Source: an uncultured Methanobrevibacter sp. (GTDB taxonomy: Archaea > Methanobacteriota > Methanobacteria > Methanobacteriales > Methanobacteriaceae). From it: a stretch of 38,615 bases of DNA. This document shows, one piece after another, positions 1,018 through 13,442 of this stretch. Position numbers and translations under genes: made by a program. How positions within the stretch are numbered: the stretch's first letter is position 1; the number at the start of each line of letters is the position of its first letter. The notes below the pieces were generated by a model that saw only the letters and a list, made by a program, of their open reading frames with translations, was not told the origin of the DNA and made no database searches. The DNA is taken from assembly GCA_902764015.1 (NCBI GenBank), contig CACWUH010000003.1, forward strand, positions 1-38,615. Reading direction: 5' to 3'.

Positions 1018-1554
1018 CTAATATTTGAAGCAATCTTCCTGATGGTTGTCAATCACTCCGATGGATTCGAGATAGGAGTAGATTATTGTCGGGCCAACGA
1101 ATTTCATTCCTCTTTTTTTCAAATCCTTTGAAATGGTCTTCGACAAATCGGATTCGGTTAAAAATTCTGCCTTTATGATTTCGCCATTCGTAAATCTCCA
1201 GATGTATTCGTCAAAGCTTCCAAATTCTTTTTGAATTTCGATAAATACTTGGGCATTGTTTATTGCCGAGGTGATTTTGCCCTTATGGCGGATGATGCCT
1301 TCGTTCAGCCGAAGCTCCTCAACCTTGTCGTCATCATAGTTGGCCACCTTTTCAACGTCAAAGTCATCGAAGGCCTCCTTGAAGTTTTCACGCTTTTTGA
1401 GTATTGTAATCCAAGATAATCCTGCCTGAAATGACTCCAAAACAAGCATCTCAAACAGCATCCTGTCATCATGGGTCGGAACTCCCCATTCCTCGTCGTG
1501 ATACCGTATATAGATTTCATCGTTTCCTGCCCATGTGCATCGATTTTCTGTCAT
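1018..1554 (-). CDS. tag: DNA-3-methyladenine glycosylase I
   Basis: Removes 3-methyladenine from alkylated DNA, the first step of base excision repair. The start NRCTW, the HDEEWGVP segment, LFEMLVLESFQAGLSW and the C-terminal H-x3-C (HQEDC) are hallmarks of Tag. In E. coli Tag a zinc is held by Cys4, His17, His175 and Cys179; an N-terminal Cys and His plus the terminal H-x3-C pair are all present here. I chose the ATG at 1554 (MTENRCTW) over one seven codons upstream because the family begins just before the zinc cysteine, and a TATA-like CTATTTAA about 28 bases upstream fits a leaderless message from there. It converges on modC with a gap of only four bases, so the two transcripts must run into each other. 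Bacterial-type gene, a possible ancient transfer. Confidence 0.9.
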   Translation of the reverse strand: MTENRCTWAGNDEIYIRYHDEEWGVPTHDDRMLFEMLVLESFQAGLSWITILKKRENFKEAFDDFDVEKVANYDDDKVEELRLNEGIIRHKGKITSAINNAQVFIEIQKEFGSFDEYIWRFTNGEIIKAEFLTESDLSKTISKDLKKRGMKFVGPTIIYSYLESIGVIDNHQEDCFKY

Positions 1555-1750
1555 GAGAATAATTATTATTGACATTGCTTAAATAGTTATTTCAAATCTT
1601 TTTTTGGTGTGTGCATTTTCCTTTGATGTGAATTTTAGGAAAAAACACGACATTTTTCTTAGATTCTTTAAGAATCTTGGAATATATTTCAAAAACCAAC
1701 ATATTAATTAAGTATCTACTATAAAATAATATAAAGAGGAGAGTATTGCT

Positions 1751-2890
1751 ATGACTAAAATAGGTATGGGAATGATGAGGCTTCCGCTTCTGGATCAAAA
1801 TGACCAGACAAGCATTGACTATGAAATGGTAAACGAGATGGTGGATGCATACATGGATGCAGGATTCAACCATTTTGACACTGCATTCGTCTACCATGAA
1901 GGCGTTGGCGAGCCGGCATTCAAGAAATGCGTTGTTGACAGGTATCCTCGCGATGCATATAAGATTGCCACAAAACTGCCGTTGTTTGTAATCACAGAGG
2001 AATCGCAGCTTGAGCCTTTGTTTGCAAAGCAGCTCGAGGACTGCGGTGTGGACTATTTTGACTATTACATGCTGCACAATGTAAGCGGGTTTACAGAAAA
2101 CGCTTGGAAAAATGTTGATTTGTACTCATTCATAGAAAGGAAAAAGCAAGAAGGCAAAATCCGGCATATCGGACTGTCCACCCACGGAAATTCCGAATTT
2201 TTAGAAGAGATTTTGTTCGAGCATCCTGAATTGGAATTTGTCCTTCTTCAAATCAATTATCTTGACTGGGAGGATGAAAATATCGAGTCAAGAAAATGTT
2301 TGGAGGTTGCAAGAAAATATGGTAAGCAGGTAATGATTATGGAGCCCTACAAGGGAGGATTTCTGGCCGATGTTCCTGAAGACGCCGAAAAGTTGATGAA
2401 GGACTATAATCCCGACAGGTCAATAGTCTCATGGGCTATGAGATTTGTGGCCAATCTGGATGTATGTGTTGTCCTAACCGGCGCAAGCACATTGGAACAG
2501 GTTGAAAATAACATTGAGGAGTTCAAAAATGCGGACCCGTTGAATGATGAGGAGATGGAAATCCTTGAAAGTGTTTCACAAATCATCAACGACAACATCA
2601 CCGTGGACTGCACAAAATGCAGGTATTGCGTCGATTCATGCACTGAAGAGATTGATATTGCAAGGCTGTTTGATTTATACAACAAGCATAAGCTTCTTGA
2701 TATTGATCAGTGGACGCCCCATGGAAATGCCTATCTGAACTATTCCAAGCTTGATGGTGTGGGAATAGCTTCCGATTGCATTGAATGTGAAGCATGCCTT
2801 GAGGAATGCCCTCAAAAAATCAATATCCCTGAAGTTCTCAAGGATGTTGCAAAAACTTTTGAAACCGAAATCTATGGATTCACAGAATAA
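1751..2890 (+). CDS. Aldo/keto reductase with C-terminal 2x[4Fe-4S] ferredoxin-like domain
   Basis: NAD(P)-type aldo/keto reductase barrel (residues about 1-265) joined to an iron-sulfur tail. The catalytic tetrad is readable as Asp43 and Tyr48 (in HFDTAFVY), Lys75 (TKLP) and His109 (MLHN). The tail carries Cys287, 290, 293 and 297, then Cys343, 346, 349 and 353 (second cluster CIECEACLEECP), enough for two [4Fe-4S] clusters. This layout is common in clostridia and methanogens, where the enzyme may take electrons from ferredoxin; the substrate is unknown. The ATG follows a clear AGAGGAGAG ribosome site, and an upstream TATA-like ACTATAAAATAA marks its own promoter, divergent from tag. Monocistronic: a T-run and a new promoter follow before the NAC gene. 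Confidence 0.9.
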   Translation: MTKIGMGMMRLPLLDQNDQTSIDYEMVNEMVDAYMDAGFNHFDTAFVYHEGVGEPAFKKCVVDRYPRDAYKIATKLPLFVITEESQLEPLFAKQLEDCGVDYFDYYMLHNVSGFTENAWKNVDLYSFIERKKQEGKIRHIGLSTHGNSEFLEEILFEHPELEFVLLQINYLDWEDENIESRKCLEVARKYGKQVMIMEPYKGGFLADVPEDAEKLMKDYNPDRSIVSWAMRFVANLDVCVVLTGASTLEQVENNIEEFKNADPLNDEEMEILESVSQIINDNITVDCTKCRYCVDSCTEEIDIARLFDLYNKHKLLDIDQWTPHGNAYLNYSKLDGVGIASDCIECEACLEECPQKINIPEVLKDVAKTFETEIYGFTE

Positions 2891-2972
2891 TCCATATTTT
2901 TTTAATTTAAGTAATCTTTAATAACAATTAATTATATATTTATAAATAGTTAATTTATTGAAGGTTTTTAAC

Positions 2973-3323
2973 ATGATACCTGGTATGAATAAAAAACAAA
3001 TGAAGCAGATGGAAAGACAGATGAAAAAGATGGGCATGAAAATGGAGGATCTTCCAGGTGCCCTTGAAGTCATCATCCGTTTTGAAGATAAGGAATTGAT
3101 TATAGACAATCCTAGCGTTAGTTTAATGAATGTGATGGGTCAGGAAACCTACCAGATTGAAGGAAAGGCTCGTGAAGTTGAATTGGAATATGAAATTGAA
3201 ATTCCAGATGAGGATGTTGAAATGGTGGCCAACAGCGCAGGAGTTTCCCAAGACGAAGCAAGGCAGGCCCTAGAGGAATGTAAAGGGGACCTTGCAGAAG
3301 CCATCATGAAATTGAACCAATAG
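2973..3323 (+). CDS. nac: Nascent polypeptide-associated complex protein (archaeal NAC)
   Basis: Ribosome-bound homodimeric chaperone that contacts emerging polypeptides. The N-terminus is a Met/Lys-rich helix (KKQMKQMERQMKKMGMKM), followed by the NAC beta domain (VIIRFEDKELIIDNPSVSLMNVMGQETYQIEG) and a C-terminal UBA domain (DVEMVANSAGVSQDEARQALEECKGDLAEAIMKL), the standard archaeal order. At 116 residues the length is normal. ATG 2973 is preferred over an upstream in-frame TTG because homologues begin MxPG, and GAAGG lies eight bases upstream. A TATA-like stretch (ATATATTTATAAATA) sits about 30 bases before the start. The phosphoesterase gene follows after five bases, so the two are probably co-transcribed. 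Confidence 0.95.
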   Translation: MIPGMNKKQMKQMERQMKKMGMKMEDLPGALEVIIRFEDKELIIDNPSVSLMNVMGQETYQIEGKAREVELEYEIEIPDEDVEMVANSAGVSQDEARQALEECKGDLAEAIMKLNQ

Positions 3324-3328
3324 ATAAC

Positions 3329-4072
3329 ATGACATTAATTGCACACATTTCCGATTTGCATATATCAAACGCGACATTTGATGAAGAGATGTTCCTTGCT
3401 GCAGTGGCCGAAATCAATAGCTTGCAGCCGGATATGGTGATATTGACCGGAGACATTACCGAAAACGGCTATTATGTGGAGTTTGAACAGGCAACAAAAT
3501 ATCTGGAAATGTTTGAAGCTCCATTGTTTGCAGTCCCTGGAAACCATGATGCCCGTAATCTTGGCTATCAAACATTTGAAGAGTTAATTGGTGAAAAGAG
3601 CTGGAAACTGACAATGGATGGCAATTTCACAGTGATGGGACTTGACAGCAGCTCTCCGGATGAGGACAAGGGCCATGTCGGAACCCCTCAGCACATGTGG
3701 CTGGAGCACCAGTTGGATGAATGTGTGATTAACGAAAATTTCTCAATTGTTGCCCTGCACCATCATGTTGTGCCGATTCCTCAGACTGGGCGTGAACGCA
3801 ACGTATTGTCCGATGCAGGAGATATCCTGAAAACCCTGACAACCCATGAGGTCGATTTGGTTCTCTCGGGACACAAGCATGTTCCAAACATCTGGAAGAT
3901 AAACGAAACCGTTATAGTCAATGCGGGCTCACTTTCTTCCATAAAACTCAGGGGAAAGAACAAAAACTCATATAACGTTTATAACATCTCAGATACTGAA
4001 ATTGAGATTTATCTAAATGAAGTGAAAGGCGAAAGATTTCTGTTTGGAAAATATCCAAGGAATGTAATATAA
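3329..4072 (+). CDS. Calcineurin-like metallophosphoesterase (CpdA/3',5'-cNMP phosphodiesterase type)
   Basis: Predicted dimetal phosphodiesterase. Motifs in order: HISDLH (Asp9, His11), TGDITENG (Asp42), GNHDAR (Asn72, His73), the ALHHHVVP histidines and SGHKHV. This is the CpdA-like class III cyclic-nucleotide phosphodiesterase arrangement, although many members act on other phosphodiesters. At 247 residues it is a single domain with no signal peptide or membrane segment, so it should be cytosolic. It starts five bases after NAC and so likely shares its promoter. The next gene (NYN RNase) has its own TATA-rich spacer at 4073-4135. The position beside a cyclase-like gene makes a nucleotide substrate attractive, but that is inference. 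Confidence 0.85.
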   Translation: MTLIAHISDLHISNATFDEEMFLAAVAEINSLQPDMVILTGDITENGYYVEFEQATKYLEMFEAPLFAVPGNHDARNLGYQTFEELIGEKSWKLTMDGNFTVMGLDSSSPDEDKGHVGTPQHMWLEHQLDECVINENFSIVALHHHVVPIPQTGRERNVLSDAGDILKTLTTHEVDLVLSGHKHVPNIWKINETVIVNAGSLSSIKLRGKNKNSYNVYNISDTEIEIYLNEVKGERFLFGKYPRNVI

Positions 4073-4135
4073 ATTAAATTTAAATATAAGAATAAAATAT
4101 ATATAATAAACTGAATTGAATTTTTAGGTGATATT

Positions 4136-5161
4136 ATGAAAGTGGTCGTAGATGCTTCTAATGTAGCTCATCATGTTAAAAACCAAAGTGGGCAACCTCA
4201 GATGTCCAATATTCTTGCCGCTGTTAAAGCATTGGAAGAAAGTGAAGATGAATTTGTAATTATTGCTGATGCATCACTTCGTCATGATATTGATGATAAG
4301 GAAAAATTTGCAAAATTGCTGGAAAGCGATAACGTGGAAGAAGTTCCGGCCGGAAATGATGCAGATCATTTCATATTGGAAATTGCAACCCGTGAAAAAG
4401 CTAAGGTCTTATCAAATGATAAATTCAGAGATTATGCTGCTGAATTCAGAAACATCGCTTCAATGAGGATACCATTTATAATAGACCATGGCAGGCTCAC
4501 GTTTGGAAAACCAAAAAAACCTAAAAAGGACAAAAACATCCTACAACATATTTGTGATGAAATTATCAAGGAATTGAACTTTAAAAAATGGGAAATCTAC
4601 ACCGGCAAGGAAGGTTTGGAAATTTCCCCATTAAACATAGCCAAACAGGCCATCATTCGTATCGACAATGAGAATAACGCAGAATCCAGACTGGAGAACA
4701 TATTTGCCAAAATACCTATGTTCAACAAGATTGTGGAAATGGTGGATGATGTGGAAATCGCCGCTCCATATGTTATTTTCGTATTGGTACATCCTAAAGA
4801 TTATAAGATTGCCGTTAAAAACGCAGGCAATATCTCAGTTACCGTTGCAGACAGATTAGGCCTTGAGAAAAAACCTCTAATCGCTGTAAGAAATGACTTG
4901 TTTACAAAACCGGGAACTTTCGAGCTGAACATCCTGCTTGCAGATGAAGTCACTGAAACTGCACCATATAACGTTCTTGTGCGCGTAAGTGAACATGATG
5001 AGGTGTTCATCAAAAGAAATTCCAGAAACATTGCAAGCACCATCGCTGGAAGACTCGGATCCTGGAAATTCCCGTTCGTATCCGTAAAGCCTGACATGTT
5101 TTTAGAAAAACCTGGAGACTTTGAAATAGAGCTTGAAAAAGGGGGAGACCTAGATGGTTAA
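4136..5161 (+). CDS. NYN/Zc3h12a-like (PIN-fold) ribonuclease with duplicated C-terminal domain
   Basis: Probable metal-dependent RNase. The first ~125 residues show a PIN-like NYN pattern: VVDASNVAHH (Asp6, Asn9), IIADAS (Asp45), NDADHFIL (Asp75, Asp77) and VLSNDKFRDY (Asn94, Asp95). A lysine-rich linker (residues 125-133) follows, then a helical segment, then two copies of a ~57-residue unit: 211-266 and 277-333. These share PY..x.V.V, NI..T.A.RLG, .KP..F and F.LEKPG/FTKPG-like blocks. I do not recognise the repeat; it could bind ligand or RNA. Start ATG follows TAGGTGATATT. The gene overlaps the next by eight bases, implying coupled translation with the GGDD-domain membrane protein. The RNase class is fairly secure; substrate and regulation are not. 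Confidence 0.75.
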   Translation: MKVVVDASNVAHHVKNQSGQPQMSNILAAVKALEESEDEFVIIADASLRHDIDDKEKFAKLLESDNVEEVPAGNDADHFILEIATREKAKVLSNDKFRDYAAEFRNIASMRIPFIIDHGRLTFGKPKKPKKDKNILQHICDEIIKELNFKKWEIYTGKEGLEISPLNIAKQAIIRIDNENNAESRLENIFAKIPMFNKIVEMVDDVEIAAPYVIFVLVHPKDYKIAVKNAGNISVTVADRLGLEKKPLIAVRNDLFTKPGTFELNILLADEVTETAPYNVLVRVSEHDEVFIKRNSRNIASTIAGRLGSWKFPFVSVKPDMFLEKPGDFEIELEKGGDLDG

Positions 5162-6356
5162 TAGCTTAACTAAGACGTTTATCCGACTCACCACCAAGCT
5201 CAATCCGATTGCAGTCGGAACAAAATTTTTTCCAACAAATTCATTGGAAACCGAGTATGTAGAACTATTCAATTATACTCAAACCATTCTATTTGAACTT
5301 GAAAAGGCTGAAATCACATCCGATACCATCTTACAAAATCTTATCCGTGATGTGGGGGCCGAAAACCTTCCGAAGGACTACACTTTCCATGAACTGAAAC
5401 CTGCAGAAAATAGGATTGAAGAATATGCATTGGTAAGTAACATTATCATGGGCAGTGACCGTTATTTTTACATTGAACTTCCCCATCCTTCCCGCTTGAT
5501 TGATATTTTTGTTAAAATCATTCAAAACGAAAAGGGAGAGATTGTGGAAAAGACAGCTACAGAACTGGTTGCCAAGATGCTGAGCAAAAACGATGCCATT
5601 CGTGTAGCTATTGAACTGATAGGAATCGGGTTGTCCGAGGGAATACAGGTAATTTCAGCTGTGGGAATGACCGGTGCCGCTTCAATTGAAAGGGCAATTC
5701 ACTATACTCAGAGTGTCGGAAGCTTTCCGGGGATTGCATTTACCAAATTGGGCGGAGAATATGCATTGGTATTTGATTCACCTTTCCTGCTTCAGGAATC
5801 AAGGCCGGTCGATTTGGAAAATTATCTCTTCATTGACTTGATTGATTCCACTAAATTCATTAACAAAAATGGAAGGAATCAATTGGTGGAATTAATGACT
5901 GGCATTAAGAATTTCATCGAAAATGAATGTGATGGTGAACTTGAAGGCTACAGGGAAGGTGGGGATGATTTCATTGCGAAATTCCCATCAAAAGATTTGG
6001 CGATTCGTGCGGGACTTGATGCCGCTTGGTTTGCCCTAGATAATGGTGCAAAAATCAGGGCGGGCGTTGGAAGAAGCAGACGTGAAGCAGGTGAGAGGGC
6101 CCAGCTTGTAGATGATTTGGATTCGGCTGCTCCATTGTCACTAGTTGTTTTTGAATTGGCCAACGGTTTGTATGCTTACAATATTCCGTCAGAATTTACA
6201 AGAACCCTGATTAATTTGGTGGAAAATGAAAAGCCAAAATTGATTGGTGTATTCGCATTCGTATTCATATTTGCCTATGTGATGTCAATTTTGGGACTCG
6301 GAATGTTCAGTTTCATCGGGGTTATTTTAGCCCTTGTTTATGCGATTATCACTTAA
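5154..6356 (+). CDS. Tail-anchored protein with GGDD (palm/class III cyclase-like) domain
   Basis: Not a family I can name. Residues 1-215 are a soluble region of unknown fold. Residues 224-320 resemble nucleotide cyclase/GGDEF palm domains: a hydrophobic strand with paired aspartates, YLFIDLIDSTKF (Asp228, Asp231), then EGYREGGDDFIAKF (GGDD at 269-272), the position of the second metal site, then KIRAGVGRSRREAGERAQ, like the late strand/helix of GGDEF, mCpol and Cas10 palms. Two hydrophobic segments (about 363-382 and 384-399) end the protein and would anchor it with the catalytic part in the cytosol. The GGDD loop and aspartates suggest activity rather than decay. Start ATG 5154 lies behind GGGGGAG and overlaps the NYN RNase gene. 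Alternatives: a degenerate cyclase used as a sensor. Confidence 0.6.
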   Translation: MVNSLTKTFIRLTTKLNPIAVGTKFFPTNSLETEYVELFNYTQTILFELEKAEITSDTILQNLIRDVGAENLPKDYTFHELKPAENRIEEYALVSNIIMGSDRYFYIELPHPSRLIDIFVKIIQNEKGEIVEKTATELVAKMLSKNDAIRVAIELIGIGLSEGIQVISAVGMTGAASIERAIHYTQSVGSFPGIAFTKLGGEYALVFDSPFLLQESRPVDLENYLFIDLIDSTKFINKNGRNQLVELMTGIKNFIENECDGELEGYREGGDDFIAKFPSKDLAIRAGLDAAWFALDNGAKIRAGVGRSRREAGERAQLVDDLDSAAPLSLVVFELANGLYAYNIPSEFTRTLINLVENEKPKLIGVFAFVFIFAYVMSILGLGMFSFIGVILALVYAIIT

Positions 6357-6377: not shown

Positions 6378-6794
6378 ATGAGACGAAAAAAAGACGATAA
6401 AAGAGTTTTAAGATCAGGAAATGGTCGTCAAAATACTTCCAAAAGAAAATTCAGAAGAAATAAAAATAAGTTCAACAGTCGTCCGCCTCTGCCTAGGAAC
6501 CAAAGGAATAGGATGCCTAAAACACCTAGAAGAAGTAGCGGAGCTCTCATGTTCATAGTGATACTTGCATTGGTGGCATTTGTCATAGGTGCCGGAATGG
6601 GTGTTTCTTTAAGTTTTGATGATGGCAGCGGTGGCGGCCAGGATCATTTTGAAAACGTGACTGAAGAAATGACCAAAAACGTAAACAACTCCAGTGTCGT
6701 TTTTGACATTGAAACCGATGGAATTGACTATAATGAAAATGGGTCTTCACAACTCAATTCGCAGTATTTGAAGTCTAATGAAGAAGAAACGTGA
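6378..6794 (+). CDS. Single-pass membrane protein with Arg/Lys-rich cytosolic head
   Basis: Unrecognised. Residues 1-54 are very basic and proline-containing (RRKKDDKR, KRKFRRNKNKF, PPLPRNQRNR), residues about 55-79 form one transmembrane helix (ALMFIVILALVAFVIGAGMG), and the rest is acidic and Asn/Ser-rich, ending in EEET. By the positive-inside rule the basic head is cytosolic and the acidic tail external. A basic, proline-rich disordered head could bind RNA or the ribosome. It lies 21 bases after the GGDD protein and its stop touches argJ, so it belongs to the same operon. Ribosome site is weak (GACGAGAAAG). No known domain seen. Confidence 0.7.
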   Translation: MRRKKDDKRVLRSGNGRQNTSKRKFRRNKNKFNSRPPLPRNQRNRMPKTPRRSSGALMFIVILALVAFVIGAGMGVSLSFDDGSGGGQDHFENVTEEMTKNVNNSSVVFDIETDGIDYNENGSSQLNSQYLKSNEEET

Positions 6795-6799
6795 TTTTT

Positions 6800-8023
6800 A
6801 TGAATTTCATTAAGGAACTTGATGGAGGATTTTCAGTAATTGAAAATCTTAATGTATCAGGAGCTCGTGAAGGAAAATATGGTGTGAGCATAATTGTTTC
6901 ACCGAACAGCACCGCATCTGCGGTTTTTACTTCAAATAAGGTAGTTGCTGCTCCTGTTAAGTATACTCAGAATGTTTTGAAAAAAGGCATTATTTCAGCT
7001 GTTTTTGTTAACAGTGGCAATGCCAACTGTTTTACAGGCGAGCAAGGATTTAAGGACTGTGAGACATTGGTCGAATTGGTGTCCAAGGATTTGAAGATAC
7101 CAAAGGATGAAATAGCAATCTCTTCAACTGGTGTAATCGGCCGTGAAATGCCTATAGACATTATTTCCAAAGTGGCTTATGAATCATTGTCAAAGCTTGG
7201 AAACAATCCGGAAAACTCACTTGCGGCTGCAAAGGCCATCATGACAACAGATACATTTCCAAAGGAATGTGCAGTTGAAGTCACATTGACAACCGGCGAA
7301 ACAGTTAGGATTGCGGGAATTACAAAAGGAAGCGGAATGATTGCTCCAAATATGGGCACCATGCTTTCATTTATCGTAACCGATGCGGTTGTTCCTGCAG
7401 ATGAAATCAAAAAAGCGCTCCGGGCATCAGCAGACATTAGCTTCAACATGATTGTGGTCGATGGGGATGAAAGCACCAACGACACATGTCTTATGATGGC
7501 GAATGGTGCATCAGGAGTTGAAGTCGTAAAAGATGGAGAAATGGATTCAAACTTCCAGGAAGCCTTAAACTATGTGTGCATAGACCTTGCCAAAAAGATG
7601 GCCCGTGACGGCGAAGGCGCATCCAAATTCATCGAGGCCAATGTCAAAAATGCATTGAATGATGAGGATGCAAAGCTGGCCGCAAAATCAATCATATCCT
7701 CAAGCTTATTCAAGTCAGCGGTATTCGGAGGCGATCCGAACTGGGGAAGAATAGTCTCAGCAATCGGATATTCCGGATGTGAGTTGAACCCGGATATCGT
7801 GACAATATCCATTGCGGATGATATGGATGATGTAGATTTGGTCAAGAATGGTGAAATTTTGGCATTTGAAGACACGCCTTATCTTGAAAGGGCAGAAAAG
7901 ATAATGCAGTCAAAAAACATCACAGTCAATATCGACATGGATTTGGGCGATGGCGAAGCCACTGCATGGGGTTGTGATTTAACATATGATTATGTCAAAA
8001 TCAATGCTGAATACACCACTTAA
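6800..8023 (+). CDS. argJ: Bifunctional ornithine acetyltransferase/N-acetylglutamate synthase
   Basis: Transfers acetyl from N-acetylornithine to glutamate in the cyclic arginine pathway. ArgJ is made as a precursor that cleaves itself before a threonine; the site is readable as KGSGMIAPNMGTML, giving Thr187 as the new N-terminus and nucleophile (usual ATML, here GTML). Also typical are VNSGNANCFTG, STGVIGREMP, DGDESTNDT and the late GGDPNWGRI. Length 407 is normal. ATG 6800 is preferred to GTG 6791 because GTGAT from the overlap forms a ribosome site five bases before it. Last gene of the operon beginning at 4136. The partner argB is found about 11.5 kb downstream. Whether it also makes acetylglutamate from acetyl-CoA cannot be told from sequence. 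Confidence 0.95.
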   Translation: MNFIKELDGGFSVIENLNVSGAREGKYGVSIIVSPNSTASAVFTSNKVVAAPVKYTQNVLKKGIISAVFVNSGNANCFTGEQGFKDCETLVELVSKDLKIPKDEIAISSTGVIGREMPIDIISKVAYESLSKLGNNPENSLAAAKAIMTTDTFPKECAVEVTLTTGETVRIAGITKGSGMIAPNMGTMLSFIVTDAVVPADEIKKALRASADISFNMIVVDGDESTNDTCLMMANGASGVEVVKDGEMDSNFQEALNYVCIDLAKKMARDGEGASKFIEANVKNALNDEDAKLAAKSIISSSLFKSAVFGGDPNWGRIVSAIGYSGCELNPDIVTISIADDMDDVDLVKNGEILAFEDTPYLERAEKIMQSKNITVNIDMDLGDGEATAWGCDLTYDYVKINAEYTT

Positions 8024-8113: not shown

Positions 8114-8218
8114 ATGGCAAAAGTTAAAGGAACCAACAGAAGAACCAGACAAAAAAGAAGTTATACCAAACCTGGTAGTAAAAGAGGAAGGGGAGTAAAA
8201 CAAACCTGGAAAAAATAA
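8114..8218 (+). CDS. Very basic 34-residue protein, function unknown
   Basis: A short ORF that size filters miss: MAKVKGTNRRTRQK followed by KRSYTKPGSKRGRGV and QTWKK. About 40 percent of residues are Lys or Arg, with no acidic residue at all, so it very likely binds nucleic acid, for example rRNA. Reality is supported by a textbook AGGAGGGT site seven to eight bases before the ATG, a strong BRE/TATA promoter upstream and a T-rich stop region downstream (8227-8239). It is a separate transcription unit, between argJ and the methyltransferases. It does not match eL41 or eS30 as I remember them. Confidence 0.75.
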   Translation: MAKVKGTNRRTRQKRSYTKPGSKRGRGVKQTWKK

Positions 8219-8219
8219 T

Positions 8220-8240
8220 CCTCTTATAACTTTTTTTCTT
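8220..8240 (+). terminator. T-rich archaeal terminator
   Basis: The stop codon of the 34-aa gene is followed by CTCTTATAACTTTTTTTCTT, a U-tract typical of archaeal intrinsic termination. No strong hairpin is needed in archaea. Confidence 0.45.
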
Positions 8241-8293
8241 ATTTTAACTATTTTTAACTGTTATTCACTAATTTTCACATTGACAATAATTAT

Positions 8294-8329
8294 ATACTAT
8301 TTCTTAAATAATATTATCTAGGTGATAAT
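8294..8329 (+). repeat. Promoter/leader element, copy 1 of 2
   Basis: The 36 bases before this methyltransferase match the 36 bases before the next one (8987-9022) at 29 positions by hand count, including ATACTATTT, TTAAA and TTATCTAGGTG. It contains an AT-rich block and the AGGTGAT ribosome site. The leader was evidently duplicated together with the gene. Confidence 0.7.
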
Positions 8330-8932
8330 ATGATGATGCCTGAAAATGGACATAGGGCTCATGGATTTTCAAGTGCATTCTTCTTGGATTCCGATGAAAT
8401 CATTCAGGAATTGAATTTAAATGGTGATGAAACCGTTATGGATGCAGGCTGCGGTGATGGCCACAATGCAATCAAAATTCTTGAAGAGTATAATCACAAG
8501 GGAACCGTCTATGCTGTTGATGTCTATGATGCTTCAATTGAGGATATGGAAAAATATAAAAGTGAAAATGATGTTCAAAACTTGATCAATATCGAAGCCG
8601 ACATTACCGAAGGAATTCCGGGGGTCGATGACGAATCCGTGGATGTCATCCTTATGGTCAATGTTTTCCATGGATTTAAGGCCTCAAGAAAGCTTGATGA
8701 GGCTGTGATTGAACTTAAAAGGATTGTCAAAAAAGACGGAAAAATCGCAATCATGGATTACAAGGCATGGGACGTTCCGAAAGGACCTCCAACTCCGGTG
8801 AGATCTTCACCTGAGGAATTGGAAGAGTTGTTCAACAGGCATGGCCTTAAGATGACCTATTTGAATGAGGATATTGGTGAAGATATTCCCGAAGGCAAGT
8901 CCCACTATCTAATCATGTTTGAAAAGGAATGA
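8330..8932 (+). CDS. Class I SAM-dependent methyltransferase, tandem copy 1
   Basis: Rossmann-fold methyltransferase of the UbiE/SmtA-like kind. Motif I is VMDAGCGDGH (residues about 36-45), the adenosine-binding acidic region is VYAVDVYD, motif IV is VDVILMVNVFHGF, and IVKKDGKIAIMDYKAW is the typical post-IV strand. The HxH-like start (GHRAHGFSS) and the end KSHYLIMFEKE are shared with the next gene. Acceptor unknown; small molecules, including metalloids or quinone-like compounds, are possible. Three ATGs in a row open the frame; AGGTGAT before 8330 supports the first. No operon partner upstream. Confidence 0.85.
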   Translation: MMMPENGHRAHGFSSAFFLDSDEIIQELNLNGDETVMDAGCGDGHNAIKILEEYNHKGTVYAVDVYDASIEDMEKYKSENDVQNLINIEADITEGIPGVDDESVDVILMVNVFHGFKASRKLDEAVIELKRIVKKDGKIAIMDYKAWDVPKGPPTPVRSSPEELEELFNRHGLKMTYLNEDIGEDIPEGKSHYLIMFEKE

Positions 8933-8939
8933 CTTTTTT

Positions 8940-8975
8940 TGATTGGGAGTTTTAAACTCTCAAAAACTTTTTTTT
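8940..8975 (+). terminator. Hairpin plus T-run
   Basis: GAGTTT-T-AAACTC at 8947-8959 forms a short stem, followed by CAAAAACTTTTTTTTG. A second T-run lies just before it. It separates the two methyltransferase genes. Confidence 0.5.
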
Positions 8976-8986
8976 GAAAATTTTAA

Positions 8987-9022
8987 ATACTATTTTTTAA
9001 AGATTATTATCTAGGTGTAATC
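8987..9022 (+). repeat. Promoter/leader element, copy 2 of 2
   Basis: Second copy of the 36-base leader described at 8294-8329, differing at seven positions by hand count. It keeps TTATCTAGGTG, which supplies the ribosome site of the second methyltransferase. Confidence 0.7.
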
Positions 9023-9610
9023 ATGGAACACAGACATCATGGAAAATCAAGCGCAACTTTCTTAGATTCCGATGAAATATTGGCCGAATTAAATCTCAAG
9101 GGCGATGAAACCTTCTTGGATGCAGGCTGCGGTGACGGCTACATTTCCAAAAGGGCTGTTGAAAAATATCTTCCCCAAGGCAAGGCTTATGCAATTGATG
9201 CTTATGCAGAATCTATTAGAGAGTTAAAAGAATATGTGGATGAGAACAATATTCAGAATTTAATTCCTATCGAAGCGGATCTTACCGAAACTGTTCAGGA
9301 TATCGGCGACGGGTCCGTTGATGTTGTTTTGATGGTCAATGTTTTCCATGGATTTACAGACTCTAGTCAAAAGGAAGACGTTATAAATGAATTGAAAAGG
9401 ATTACCAAATCCGATGGCAGAATTGCAATAATGGATTTCAAGCCAATAGAAAACACCAGAGGGCCTCCACTCGAAATCAGGCTTTCACACATGGAAGTGG
9501 AAAAGACATTTAACCGTTGCGGCCTTGAAAAGGATTATCTGAATGTGGACATTGGCGAAGAGAATCCGCATGGCAAATCCCATTATCTAATCATATTCAA
9601 AAAGGAGTAG
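9023..9610 (+). CDS. Class I SAM-dependent methyltransferase, tandem copy 2
   Basis: Paralogue of the preceding gene: FLDSDEI.ELNL.GDET, DAGCGDG, QNLI.IEAD.TE, VDV.LMVNVFHGF, ELKRI, IAIMD, GPP and GKSHYLI.F.KE occur in both at the same spacing, and more than half of positions match by eye. The N-terminus is His-rich (EHRHHG), so a metal or metalloid acceptor is conceivable, but nothing proves this. Start ATG follows CTAGGTGTAATC. It ends six bases before tarI, so it may be co-transcribed with the CDP-ribitol genes even though its ancestor has its own leader. Confidence 0.85.
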   Translation: MEHRHHGKSSATFLDSDEILAELNLKGDETFLDAGCGDGYISKRAVEKYLPQGKAYAIDAYAESIRELKEYVDENNIQNLIPIEADLTETVQDIGDGSVDVVLMVNVFHGFTDSSQKEDVINELKRITKSDGRIAIMDFKPIENTRGPPLEIRLSHMEVEKTFNRCGLEKDYLNVDIGEENPHGKSHYLIIFKKE

Positions 9611-9616
9611 ACTCAC

Positions 9617-10327
9617 ATGATTTTTGCAGCGATACTTGCAGGAGGAATAGGCTCAAGAATGGGGGGCACGGACACTCCCAAACAGTTTTTGCCCCTAGGA
9701 AACAAGCCCGTTATCATTCATACCATTGAAAAGTTCGTAATCAATGAGAATATCGACAAGACAATTGTCCTGATTCCAAAGAACTTCATAAACCATACAA
9801 ATAATCTGATTAGCGAATACATCGGTGAAAATGATGACCTCATAGTCATCGAGGGCGGCGAGACCAGAAACGACACAATCATGAACAGCATCAGATATAT
9901 CGAAGACAATTTCGGAATCGATGATGACTCTATTATCCTTACGCATGACTCGGTGCGCCCGTTTGTCACTCATAGAATTATTGAGGATAACATCGATGCT
10001 GCAAGAAAGTATGGGGCCTGTGATACAGTCATTCCGGCTACAGACACAATTGTCGAAAGCGTGAACGGCCAGACCATTGAAAGCATCCCTGTGAGGGACT
10101 ATTATTACCAAGGCCAAACGCCACAGAGCTTCAATATAAAGAAACTTTTCAATCTAATCAACAGTTTGACGGAAGCTGAAACCAATATACTGACAGATGC
10201 CTGCAAAATCTTCACACTTAAGGATGAGGATGTACATCTGGTTGAAGGTGAAGTGACAAATATCAAGATTACATACCCTTATGACTTGAAACTGGCAAAC
10301 ACAATACTTGAGGATGGACATGATTAA
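9617..10327 (+). CDS. tarI: D-ribitol-5-phosphate cytidylyltransferase (IspD/TarI family)
   Basis: Joins CTP and ribitol 5-phosphate to CDP-ribitol. The nucleotide-binding N-terminus LAGGIGSRMG..TPKQFLPLGNKPVI, GGETRNDTIMNSI, THDSVRPFV, PATDTI and YYQGQTPQSFN are all IspD/TarI family signatures, and 236 residues is the usual length. It is called TarI, not IspD, because archaea make isoprenoids by the mevalonate route and because the next gene, which overlaps it by eight bases, is a clear TarJ. Start ATG 9617 gives MIFAAILAGG as in TarI. The product would feed a ribitol-phosphate-containing surface glycan or wall-linked polymer; no transferase for it is in the window. Confidence 0.85.
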   Translation: MIFAAILAGGIGSRMGGTDTPKQFLPLGNKPVIIHTIEKFVINENIDKTIVLIPKNFINHTNNLISEYIGENDDLIVIEGGETRNDTIMNSIRYIEDNFGIDDDSIILTHDSVRPFVTHRIIEDNIDAARKYGACDTVIPATDTIVESVNGQTIESIPVRDYYYQGQTPQSFNIKKLFNLINSLTEAETNILTDACKIFTLKDEDVHLVEGEVTNIKITYPYDLKLANTILEDGHD

Positions 10328-11336
10328 CATTGTTTATAGACTTAAATCCCCCAAATTTTTCGAGGAATCAATCGATGAGGTGGAGCTTGACGGAGTGGTC
10401 GTAAGGCCAACATACCTTTCAATCTGTCAGGCCGACCAAAGATACTATCAGGGCTCAAGGCCTGCCGAGATACTGGAGGAAAAACTGCCGATGGCGTTGA
10501 TTCATGAAGGAATCGGAGAGGTGATATATGACAAATCCGGTGAGTTCAAAGCCGGCGATAAGGTCGTCATGATTCCAAACACCCCTATGGGGGATGATGT
10601 CTGCAGGCCAAACTATTCCTGCAAGTCCAAATTCAGGGGAAGCGGATTCGACGGATTCACTTCAGACCTAATCAAGTTGGATTCAAGCCGTGTAGTCAAA
10701 ATCCCCGATGACTTCAATCCCCATGTTGCCGCATTCATAGAGCTGATGACGGTTGCATATCAAGGTATAAGTAGGTTTTCAGACCTTGCAATAACTCCAA
10801 AGGACACATTGGGGGTCTGGGGAGATGGAAACCTGGGATTCATCACTGCACTGTTTTTGAAAGAGAAATTCCCGGATTCCAAAGTCATAGTTTTTGGAAA
10901 GCACCTGGAAAACCTGAACCTGTTTTCATTTGCCGATGAAATCTATCAGATACACAATGTTGCTGATGACATGGCAATAGACCACGGTTTCGAATGCGTT
11001 GGCTCAAGTGCCTCCCAGTCTGCCATAGAACAGATTATCGATCTAATCAATCCTCAGGGAACCATAAACCTCTTTGGTGTAAGCGAATATCCTGTCCCGA
11101 TCAATACGAGGATGATTCTGGAGAAGGGATTGACCGTCCAGGGAAACAGCAGGTCCGAGAGGGAAGACTTTGTTGGAGTTGTTGAAACTCTCAAGCAAAA
11201 TCCTCAGCTCTTTGAATACCTGGAAAAGCTGGTGGCCAACATATGTGAAATAAACACCTTGAATGACCTGAAGGAAGCATTTGACAGGGATTATATTTCA
11301 CACTTTGGCAAGACCATCCTGAAATGGAATAAATAA
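10320..11336 (+). CDS. tarJ: Ribulose-5-phosphate reductase (TarJ-type alcohol dehydrogenase)
   Basis: Reduces ribulose 5-phosphate to ribitol 5-phosphate with NADPH, the step before TarI. Segments VVRPTYLSICQADQRYYQG, LPMALIHEGIGEV, KVVMIPNTP, SKFRGSGFDGF, GVWGDGNLGF, IDHGFECVGSSASQSAIEQI, LFGVSEYPVPINTRMILEKGLT and SRSEREDF closely follow Gram-positive TarJ as I remember it. ATG 10320 (MINIVYRLKSPKFF) is chosen over TTG 10308 and ATG 10314: the family begins MINxVY, and GAGG lies six bases upstream. The zinc-dehydrogenase fold with NWGKT/HFGKT end is kept. It overlaps tarI, so the two proteins are coupled. Looks acquired from bacteria. Confidence 0.9.
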   Translation: MINIVYRLKSPKFFEESIDEVELDGVVVRPTYLSICQADQRYYQGSRPAEILEEKLPMALIHEGIGEVIYDKSGEFKAGDKVVMIPNTPMGDDVCRPNYSCKSKFRGSGFDGFTSDLIKLDSSRVVKIPDDFNPHVAAFIELMTVAYQGISRFSDLAITPKDTLGVWGDGNLGFITALFLKEKFPDSKVIVFGKHLENLNLFSFADEIYQIHNVADDMAIDHGFECVGSSASQSAIEQIIDLINPQGTINLFGVSEYPVPINTRMILEKGLTVQGNSRSEREDFVGVVETLKQNPQLFEYLEKLVANICEINTLNDLKEAFDRDYISHFGKTILKWNK

Positions 11337-11864
11337 TCAATAATAAATCTTATTCATTATTTTTAAGGATTCGACCCTGAAATAGTTCCTGTCCTTTCTG
11401 GAGCACATTACAGGAAGCATTTCCACGGCCTTGATGTCCTCGCAATCAAGAACCAGATTGTTTTTGAGCTTGTTTTTGATGAAGTCGAGGATGAGATGGC
11501 AGGGTTCATCCTGTGAACATGCAAGCTTTATGGTGAATTCGGCATCTGATTTTAACGGGCATTCCCTGACTGTAACATCGATGTTTTTAGGGCATAGGAT
11601 ATAAACGGAAACCTTCTTCTGATGCTTTTCATAGAGATTTTCAGCAAATTCGACATATTTCGCAAGCTCTTCTTCATCGAAGTCCTTCAACTGGATTTCA
11701 AAATCGATGAACTCTCCGTCTTCGGTTCTGAAAACATCGCCTCCCTGATGAACTCCTTCATCAAGCATTAGGGAATCCTTTGGAGCGAGGCATCTGATTT
11801 TTCGTGTGTCATTAAAAGTCTCTCTGATTATTCTGGTTTTAATATTGAATTCTCTTGTTTTCAT
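11337..11864 (-). CDS. Uncharacterised 175-aa protein, possibly PD-(D/E)XK nuclease-like
   Basis: No family recognised with confidence. The centre reads GEFIDFEIQLKDFDEEELAKYVEFAENLYEKHQKKVSVYIL. A hydrophobic strand ending in E-x-Q, followed by a helix with Tyr and then a strand ending in a basic/hydrophobic stretch, is like the Rpn/YhgA-type PD-(D/E)XK core, but the upstream Asp is not certain. No membrane segment. ATG 11864 sits behind AGAGGTT. It converges with tarJ with no gap between the stop codons. Followed (in its own 5' direction) by an AT-rich spacer before the MATE gene. Function is open. Confidence 0.5.
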   Translation of the reverse strand: MKTREFNIKTRIIRETFNDTRKIRCLAPKDSLMLDEGVHQGGDVFRTEDGEFIDFEIQLKDFDEEELAKYVEFAENLYEKHQKKVSVYILCPKNIDVTVRECPLKSDAEFTIKLACSQDEPCHLILDFIKNKLKNNLVLDCEDIKAVEMLPVMCSRKDRNYFRVESLKIMNKIYY

Positions 11865-12077
11865 TTTTTAACCTCTAAAATTTTGGTTGTGTTTTCTATA
11901 TTGTTTTTCATAGCTTATAAATGAGTAAGTTTTAAATTCAAGCAATTTAAAGAGGTTAAATCAATTTTAAAATGTGGAGACAATTTGCATAATTGATACA
12001 AAATAGTCTTTTGAAATGTTTTGGTGAGATGGCAATGGCGTATATTTTGGATGGGTTTGAATGATTTGGAAATGAAG
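11865..12077. other. Intergenic spacer, no gene seen
   Basis: About 210 AT-rich bases between the minus-strand 175-aa gene and the end of the MATE gene. Short frames here have no ribosome site and low-complexity content. It must hold the promoter of the 175-aa gene; a TATA-like run is at about 11890-11925. Confidence 0.4.
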
Positions 12078-13442
12078 CTAATTTCCAAATCTTTCCCTTG
12101 TCCTTTTGATTTCATATCTTGCAAAGAGGTAATTGATTATGCTGGCGATTGCCCTTCCAATGCACAATCCTAGCCAGATTCCGACCAAACCCCAGTCAAG
12201 GATGAATACAAAGACATGAATCAATGGAACGACGAATAGAATTTCCCTCAGTATCGTAAACATCAGGCTGTACATTCCTTTCCCGATTCCCTGATAAAAG
12301 AAGCTTGAAGGGATTCCGATTCCTGTCAGAATCAGACAAGGACATACAATCTGGAGGTACTGTGCAATTCCCGGAACCAGATTGGCCGTTTCGGGAGTGT
12401 ATGCAAATATTGTGGCCAATGGAGTTGCAAATATTACGAGAATCAATGTGACTGCGGTGCCCAGTGCCAAACCGAATTTTGCTCCGAACTTATGGGTTCT
12501 TGAAAGGTAGTCTCCGTTTCTGGCGCCGTATGCGCTTCCGGCCACTGCGATGACAGCTGATCCTATTGCCGTCAGCGGCATTATTGCAAAGAGGTATAAC
12601 CTTTGGCCTGAAGTGAAAGTGGCTATTCCGTAGTCTCCTCCAACCAATGAGATTACAATCAGATAGATTGACATTGCTATCGCCATAATAAGCATATCGA
12701 GCGCTGATGGGATTCCCACCTTCAGAATGTCCTTTGCCAGTTTTGAATCGAACTTGAAGTTTTTAAGGGTGACATCGATGTATGTGTCCTTTTTAATCAG
12801 TATCCAGTAGAGGATTATCAATGCAGCAATCGCTGAGCTCACGACTGTTGCAAGGGAGGCTCCGGCTGAACCTAAACCGAGTGTGTAGATGAATATCGGG
12901 TCAAGTGATGCGTTCAGGATGACTGTGGCAACCACAACATACATTGCACGTTTCATGTCTCCTTCTCCACGAAGGATTCCGCTGCAGCCGTTTCCAAACA
13001 TCAATCCAATCAATCCTAAAAAGAGTGGTGTAGCATAGGCAACAGCTTCATTGAGTGTCTGTCCGGTAGCTCCATAGCTTTTAAGCAGGGGTTCCTGCAT
13101 TATCAGGAAAATCACTGTCAAAACGATGGAAGCTATCAGAAATATGAACAATGACTGTGTTGCTGACTTTGTGGCCATTTCACGATTCTTGGCTCCTATA
13201 AATCTTGAGATGCTGCTGGTGGCACCGTTTCCAAGTCCTACGCTTGCACCGTTCAAGATCATAAAAATCGGTGTTACAAATCCGATTCCCGCAATTGCGG
13301 TTTGTCCGAGGCCTGCCACCCAAATCCCGTCAACGATGTTGTAAAGGGCGGTCAGAATCATCGATATCATAATCGGAATTGCAAGCTTTTTGACTGCCTT
13401 TTCAGGCTCTCCTCTCATCAGTTCAACGTTTTTGTTTGCCAT
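12078..13442 (-). CDS. MATE-family multidrug/Na+ antiporter
   Basis: Polytopic exporter of the MATE family (NorM/DinF type), exchanging cations for drugs or toxic metabolites. About 12 hydrophobic segments are spread over 454 residues, starting with KKLAIPIMISMILTALYNIVDGIWVAGLG, where the internal VDGIWVAGLG replaces the VDTIFVGxLG seen in bacteria. GLGNGATSSISRFIGAKN and the repeat-half GSAYGARNGDYLSRTHKFG are family features. ATG 13442 is preferred over a start ten codons upstream: GTGAT lies just before it and the upstream frame runs into the marR coding end. The gene begins four bases after marR stops, so the pair is an operon controlled by that regulator. Confidence 0.9.
   Translation of the reverse strand: MANKNVELMRGEPEKAVKKLAIPIMISMILTALYNIVDGIWVAGLGQTAIAGIGFVTPIFMILNGASVGLGNGATSSISRFIGAKNREMATKSATQSLFIFLIASIVLTVIFLIMQEPLLKSYGATGQTLNEAVAYATPLFLGLIGLMFGNGCSGILRGEGDMKRAMYVVVATVILNASLDPIFIYTLGLGSAGASLATVVSSAIAALIILYWILIKKDTYIDVTLKNFKFDSKLAKDILKVGIPSALDMLIMAIAMSIYLIVISLVGGDYGIATFTSGQRLYLFAIMPLTAIGSAVIAVAGSAYGARNGDYLSRTHKFGAKFGLALGTAVTLILVIFATPLATIFAYTPETANLVPGIAQYLQIVCPCLILTGIGIPSSFFYQGIGKGMYSLMFTILREILFVVPLIHVFVFILDWGLVGIWLGLCIGRAIASIINYLFARYEIKRTRERFGN

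Follow-up and report, generated by a model that had tools for sequence, protein, structure and literature searches.

In a window of 38,615 nucleotides from an uncultured Methanobrevibacter sp. (positions 1 to 38,615 of contig CACWUH010000003.1, assembly GCA_902764015.1), we studied two adjacent genes, one encoding an RNase of the NYN type and the other a membrane-anchored protein with two palm domains (hereafter, the palm protein). We found that these genes look like a core, housekeeping-like pair of the Methanobacteria, lying close to genes of RNA modification and translation. The reading that we prefer, to which we give a probability of roughly 45%, is that of a translationally coupled and vertically inherited housekeeping unit, made of a membrane-bound, pseudo-dimeric, cyclase-like enzyme and of an RNase that it would control. 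The initial annotation of the window, made from the sequence alone, took the same genes together with a neighbouring metallophosphoesterase (MPE) for a candidate nucleotide-messenger system comparable to the cOA-type and CBASS-like ones. It had the gene coordinates right, as well as the overlap of eight bases between the end of the NYN gene and the start of the palm gene (5154-5161). The pair and the parts of the palm protein are laid out as follows:

4136..5161, + strand: NYN/PIN RNase of the Zc3h12a type (PF11977, Foldseek matches and invariant PIN residues)
5154..6356, + strand: membrane-anchored tandem-palm protein, nucleotidyl-cyclase-like, 400 aa (fold model, Foldseek matches, duplication and conservation)
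5463..5771, + strand: palm A, residues ~104-206, degenerate (AlphaFold, duplication of palm B and residue counts)
5820..6182, + strand: palm B, residues ~223-343, with a putative NTP/metal site D228/D271/D272 (fold, conservation and PDB profile matches)
6234..6350, + strand: two predicted C-terminal transmembrane helices, residues 361-379 and 383-399 (AlphaFold helices and hydropathy)

We surveyed 132 genomes of Methanobacteria, for which a completeness of at least 80% was requested. The palm gene is present in 129 of them, the NYN gene in 128 and both together in 128, always in single copy. Three draft genomes lack both genes, and one more has the palm gene only as a contig fragment. Wherever the two genes occur together (128/128) they are on the same contig and strand, with the NYN gene first and a median gap of 4 nt. 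Most gaps (105 genomes) do not exceed 50 nt; 22 others measure 51-800 nt, and a single genome has one of 2.5 kb. Hence, the adjacency seen in the initial annotation extends to all but one of these 128 genomes. The pair is clearly separated only in genome G099 (positions 1431-3928 of locus L136), where a TnpB/IS605-like element has inserted and lies, with a radical-SAM-like open reading frame, between the NYN and palm genes. Full-length open frames are kept over more than 120 genomes, which excludes chance, and the identity to the window drops with taxonomic distance, so that the pair was apparently inherited vertically.

The palm protein was modelled with AlphaFold from 24 relatives (mean pLDDT 85.5, pTM 0.74). 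In the model, an N-terminal alpha/beta domain (residues 17-82) is followed by two palms (104-206 and 223-343), and the chain ends in two hydrophobic helices. One palm is an internal duplicate of the other, with an hhalign score of 56 (E=2e-10) when scores after 100 shuffles did not exceed 10.4. We also considered the N-terminal domain as a third copy of the palm and rejected this after the same type of comparison within the protein. The single palm that had been proposed at residues 224-320 does therefore have a palm fold, according to both AlphaFold and Foldseek, but it is one of two in tandem. Similarly, the proposed tail anchor stands as a membrane tail, with a hydropathy peak in this region in 24 of 24 relatives, but two helices are predicted there instead of one.

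The residues of the two palms were compared over 24 sequences, in which the others are 45-75% identical to the palm protein of the window. Palm B carries the motif string FIDxxDST...GYREGGDD...GIGxSRREAGERA, and D228, S232, T233, G269, G270, D271, D272, K280, R309, R310 and E311 are invariant in all 24; the hairpin reads GGDD(F/L/I/V) across members. Three of the four aspartates that had been put forward as metal ligands are thus strictly conserved (D228, D271 and D272), whereas the fourth is not: position 231 has D in 19 sequences, N in four and G in one. In the deepest genome, G150, the invariant set of palm B is kept except for R310K, and position 231 is N. Palm A has T, S, A or K (mostly T or S) at position 136, the equivalent of D271, and its own invariant residues are E132, E137, K145 and R180. 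With regard to the base-specifying pair (K-D/T or E-C) and the transition-state N-R pair that class III cyclases have on the partner palm, E132 falls near the base-specifying position and R180 is invariant, but a gap at the hairpin makes this alignment ambiguous. Taken functionally, the residues of the two palms would fit a pseudo-dimer in which one half provides a metal site and the other acts as its partner.

Structure and profile searches point to the class III nucleotidyl cyclases. These rank first among the Foldseek matches of the palm protein model (two-domain AC9 with E=1.7e-6, Ma1120 and Rv1900c), with an archaeal GTP cyclohydrolase III (GCH III, 2qv6) at E=1.7e-4. They are also on top when the profile of palm B is searched against PDB sequences with hmmsearch (Rv1900c with E=0.0012, Ma1120 with E ~0.04); the same comparison with the profile of palm A gave only designed repeats and chance matches. 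In the HMMER alignment to Rv1900c, D228 corresponds to the metal aspartate of strand 1 (the FTD motif) and D271 to the metal aspartate of the GD motif. Palm B resembles class III cyclases in these searches, and the equivalence of D228 and D271 with their metal ligands, which rests on that alignment, is a putative one. The palm protein shares with class III cyclases (Rv1900c, Ma1120, PycC and the C1/C2 domains of the mammalian adenylyl cyclases) the palm fold, the FxDxxxSTxxxxxxG motif and a Gly-Asp hairpin, and it shares with the mammalian enzymes the presence of two palms within one chain. It differs from them by having GGDD where cyclases have xGD(G/A/S), by lacking an obvious dimerisation arm, and by its additional N-terminal alpha/beta domain and C-terminal pair of transmembrane helices.

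Several observations weigh against a cyclase-like enzyme that controls the RNase. No Pfam cyclase model matches the palm protein above its cut-off, the best E value for PF00211 being 0.13 for one member; that PF00211 grazes the palm gene at all, in genome G003 and in one family member, speaks on the other side for the cyclase reading. More generally, the protein has no significant match to a family of Pfam, NCBIfam, PADLOC or PHROGs. Sequence support for the relation to cyclases is weak, with E values from 0.001 to 0.1, and neither the class III dimerisation arm nor the N-R catalytic pair is evident. Superpositions of both domains on adenylyl cyclases and on GCH III are poor (rmsd 15-21), which leaves the relative placement of the two palms unsettled. 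The GGDD hairpin fits palms of the polymerase type too, and is shared between palm B, where G269-D272 are invariant, and the CRISPR-type palms of Cas10 and mCpol. As to the GGDEF diguanylate cyclases, PF00990 has no match in nine of ten genomes, with one sub-threshold match elsewhere, and the hairpin of palm B does not have the GG(D/E)EF motif. Finally, the pairing of the genes shows a functional link without telling its direction.

The NYN protein is easier to place. Its residues 2-121 match the Pfam family RNase_Zc3h12a (PF11977) with E=8.6e-17 and 61.7 bits, for a curated cut-off of 23, and its model matches the PIN domains of ZC3H12C/Regnase in Foldseek with E ~1e-5. The PIN residues D6, N9, D45, D77 and D95 are invariant among 24 relatives, so that the protein is probably an active nuclease, and the RNase call of the initial annotation is upheld. 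The archaeal protein and the Regnase/ZC3H12 RNases have in common the PIN/NYN catalytic core and its acidic residues; they differ in that the archaeal one lacks the CCCH zinc finger and has a C-terminal tandem repeat instead. The two units of the repeat, residues ~205-270 and 271-337, align with an hhalign score of 58.6, whereas 100 shuffles of the columns never exceeded 10.8, and we found this repeat described nowhere. No family of Pfam matches the C-terminal part, Foldseek gives nothing significant for the NYN protein beyond the PIN domain, and the PDB has no convincing match to the repeat. There is thus no evidence of a sensor of the CARF or SAVED type.

These elements can be assembled into a tentative mechanism. 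The palm protein would be a membrane-bound, single-chain, pseudo-dimeric enzyme akin to nucleotidyl cyclases, with the metal site in palm B (D228 and D271/D272) and palm A as a degenerate partner, as in the fused C1/C2 adenylyl cyclases. Most likely, it would bind an NTP on the inner side of the membrane and turn it into a nucleotide that is cyclic or condensed in another way. The NYN protein would be an RNase dependent on Mg, and the palm protein or its product would govern how active it is or where it is located; the pair would in this way tune RNA turnover or processing. Sequence and prediction show the fold, the duplication, the invariant residues, the membrane segments, the co-occurrence and the gene order, and we infer the catalysis, the nature of the product and the control of the RNase by the palm protein.

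One might alternatively see in the palm protein a catalytically silent nucleotide sensor that tethers the NYN RNase to the membrane, giving a membrane-attached RNA-decay unit with a layout comparable to the membrane attachment of the bacterial RNase E or RNase Y. The two conserved C-terminal transmembrane helices, the tight pairing with a soluble RNase, the fact that neither protein has a known domain for sensing cyclic nucleotides, and a palm A that is degenerate yet has invariant residues would all suit a tether. But none of the three canonical aspartates of the metal site varies in the 24 diverse sequences, nor does the GGDD hairpin, and such conservation suggests that the protein carries out chemistry and does not simply bind. 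We regard a silent tether as a rather unlikely explanation. Also unlikely in our view is a role for the palm protein as a nucleotidyltransferase, or as an enzyme that processes GTP, similar to Thg1 or GCH III. It would then serve the maturation of RNA or the metabolism of cofactors, the NYN protein would trim the same RNA and no second messenger would be involved. Three acidic palm residues are found in Thg1, GGDEF and Cas10 proteins as well (PMC2904730), and the neighbourhood of the tRNA-modifying transglycosylase (TGT) and of the nascent polypeptide-associated complex (NAC) would make sense for such a role. Archaeal GCH III (PF05165, 2qv6) shares with the palm protein the tandem palms, a GGD(N/D) hairpin and a GIGK-type strand and helix (motif GIGKxxxxA), in line with the Foldseek match to 2qv6. 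Yet, the palm protein is membrane-anchored, which would be unusual for tRNA repair, it has GGDD where GCH III has GGDN, and PF05165 does not match it. We rejected its identification as a GCH III: PF05165 finds another locus in genome G000 and its relatives and has no match at E<=10 in 24 members of the palm family, and a separate true GCH III gene is present in 19 of the 21 relatives tested, including every one that is at least 90% complete. The comparison of the palm and GCH III profiles was also insignificant, with a GCH III alignment that is very shallow (six close sequences).

The least likely explanation, which we consider highly improbable, is the one closest to the initial annotation, an antiviral circuit analogous to CBASS or cyclic oligoadenylate (cOA) systems in which the palm signals, the NYN protein is the effector and the MPE the off-switch. 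The three genes do adjoin, both in the window and in 98 of the 128 genomes, and the palm and the RNase are both predicted to be active. But of the traits to be expected from a CBASS or cOA system, namely a patchy, mobile distribution, an effector nuclease with a nucleotide-sensing domain and a signal-degrading phosphodiesterase as a regular part, none is found at the NYN-palm locus. The pair is universal and single-copy, its neighbours are housekeeping genes, and we found no CARF-, SAVED- or CRISPR-like part at the locus. The palm protein has no counterpart among the PADLOC models, the NYN protein of the window has no match there, and the single match that PADLOC gave, weak, unrelated and chance-like, is to one NYN relative. 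Collections of plasmids, phages and viral contigs hold no copies of the pair. For these reasons we rejected the defence reading. A viral structure library gave nothing at E<=0.001. Many genomes lack the MPE or have it apart from the pair: beyond the 98 where it adjoins the pair, at least nine genomes have it at another place and a further five have split matches at another place. In genus g4 it was found in only one of 12 genomes, being absent even from a closed one. It is an ancestral neighbour but no obligate partner of the pair, and it is the weak point of the proposed system. Of the proposed messenger system, then, the link between the RNase and the cyclase-like protein survives through their pairing, whereas the MPE is not a regular part. 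In G053, G147, G051, G001 and L070 the MPE has stops within the match or split frames, which is consistent with decay or with assembly errors.

The existence of the pair was already known. Lupo et al. 2025 (PMC11915815) described a syntenic "cluster D" common to pseudomurein-containing archaea, in which a Zc3h12a-like NYN RNase (OG0001213) is joined by a "nucleotide cyclase" that has at least two transmembrane segments (OG0001214; Table 1 of that work). The cyclase name is there an InterProScan label only, and the authors related the cluster to the metabolism of nucleic acids or to signal transduction, a tie to the cell wall being improbable to them. Its taxa are Methanobacteriales, and the groups retained in that study include Methanopyrales. 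Cluster D almost certainly corresponds to the same genes as our pair, a match made by annotation, synteny, transmembrane prediction and taxa rather than by the sequences of the orthologous groups. To this our analysis adds the tandem duplication of the palm, the conservation of its residues, the dispensable MPE and the operon with tgtA and NAC; in the literature that we found, neither the architecture nor the function of the pair is described. A literature search for MTH177-MTH181, our guess at how the genes are named in Methanothermobacter, brought up nothing of relevance. Among relatives of the GGDEF proteins, Anantharaman et al. 2010 (PMC2904730) reported a small family from archaea whose type member is MK0296 of Methanopyrus, a protein that only two relevant papers mention. 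Compared by description only, it is a candidate Methanopyrales orthologue, being small, archaeal, present in Methanopyrus and endowed with three acidic palm residues, but MK0296 is described as GGDEF-like whereas palm B is nearer to class III cyclases in our searches.

These results bear on an old question. The presence of cAMP was reported in 1986 in Methanothermobacter (M. thermautotrophicus), which has no known synthase, and it was more recently concluded that cAMP in most archaea is probably the product of an unknown class of adenylyl cyclase (PMC8646023, 2021). In the same work the archaeal CYTH protein tested was a phosphohydrolase, and true class IV cyclases were of bacterial origin. 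Each of the ten Methanobacteria genomes that we tested has one CYTH protein, and none has a match to PF00211 or PF00990 above the cut-off. With no class III cyclase or GGDEF model above cut-off in these genomes, the palm protein is left as a strong candidate for the cAMP synthase, and it makes the question of this enzyme in archaea directly testable. One might go further and speculate that the palm protein founds a class of membrane-bound, single-chain, pseudo-heterodimeric archaeal cyclases, makes the cAMP (or a related nucleotide) of Methanothermobacter, and directly controls the NYN protein through its product or its conformation, but we find this full version quite doubtful. If the NYN protein is indeed the target of the palm protein, nucleotide-controlled RNA cleavage would be a core, non-antiviral function in methanogens of the gut and the rumen.

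The genes around the pair include tgtA, which encodes the archaeosine tRNA-guanine transglycosylase, and those for NAC, MPE, ArgJ and ArgB. The features immediately 5' of the NYN gene are:

2958..3323, + strand: archaeal NAC, an ancestral neighbour (TIGR00264 with E=4.6e-38; conserved gene order)
3329..4072, + strand: CpdA-like MPE (Pfam PF00149, Metallophos, with E=2.7e-20; metal motifs kept; the initial annotation had already called this adjoining gene CpdA-like)
4073..4135, + strand: intergenic stretch with a putative promoter and ribosome-binding site (alignment of nine relatives)

Deeper lineages, among them the most divergent genome (G150), have the order tgtA-NAC-MPE-NYN-palm, with genes that often overlap, and this cluster is the ancestral arrangement. 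In Methanobrevibacter, TTTAAATAT and ATATATA boxes and a GGTGAT are conserved in the stretch 4073-4135. This is a probable separate archaeal promoter followed by a ribosome-binding site, and the TATA-like stretch between the MPE and NYN genes suggests that the NYN and palm genes have a promoter of their own in this genus. In G150 (positions 8201-12392 of locus L135) a Methyltransf_30 methyltransferase, tgtA, NAC and the MPE form a compact cluster of overlapping or abutting genes, which suggests an ancestral tie of archaeosine tRNA modification to NAC.

On the 3' side, the palm gene is followed by a gene (6378-6794) whose product is basic and has a single hydrophobic segment, and then by argJ (6791-8023). 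The basic protein evolves much faster than its neighbours, with 33-52% identity within Methanobrevibacter against ~67-95% for them, and BLAST recognised none beyond the Methanobrevibacter group. Further along the window, two neighbouring paralogous SAM-dependent methyltransferases (8330-9610) differ in copy number among relatives. On the other side of the locus, the gene at 1751-2890 encodes an aldo-keto reductase with a fused C-terminal domain of the 4Fe-4S ferredoxin type.

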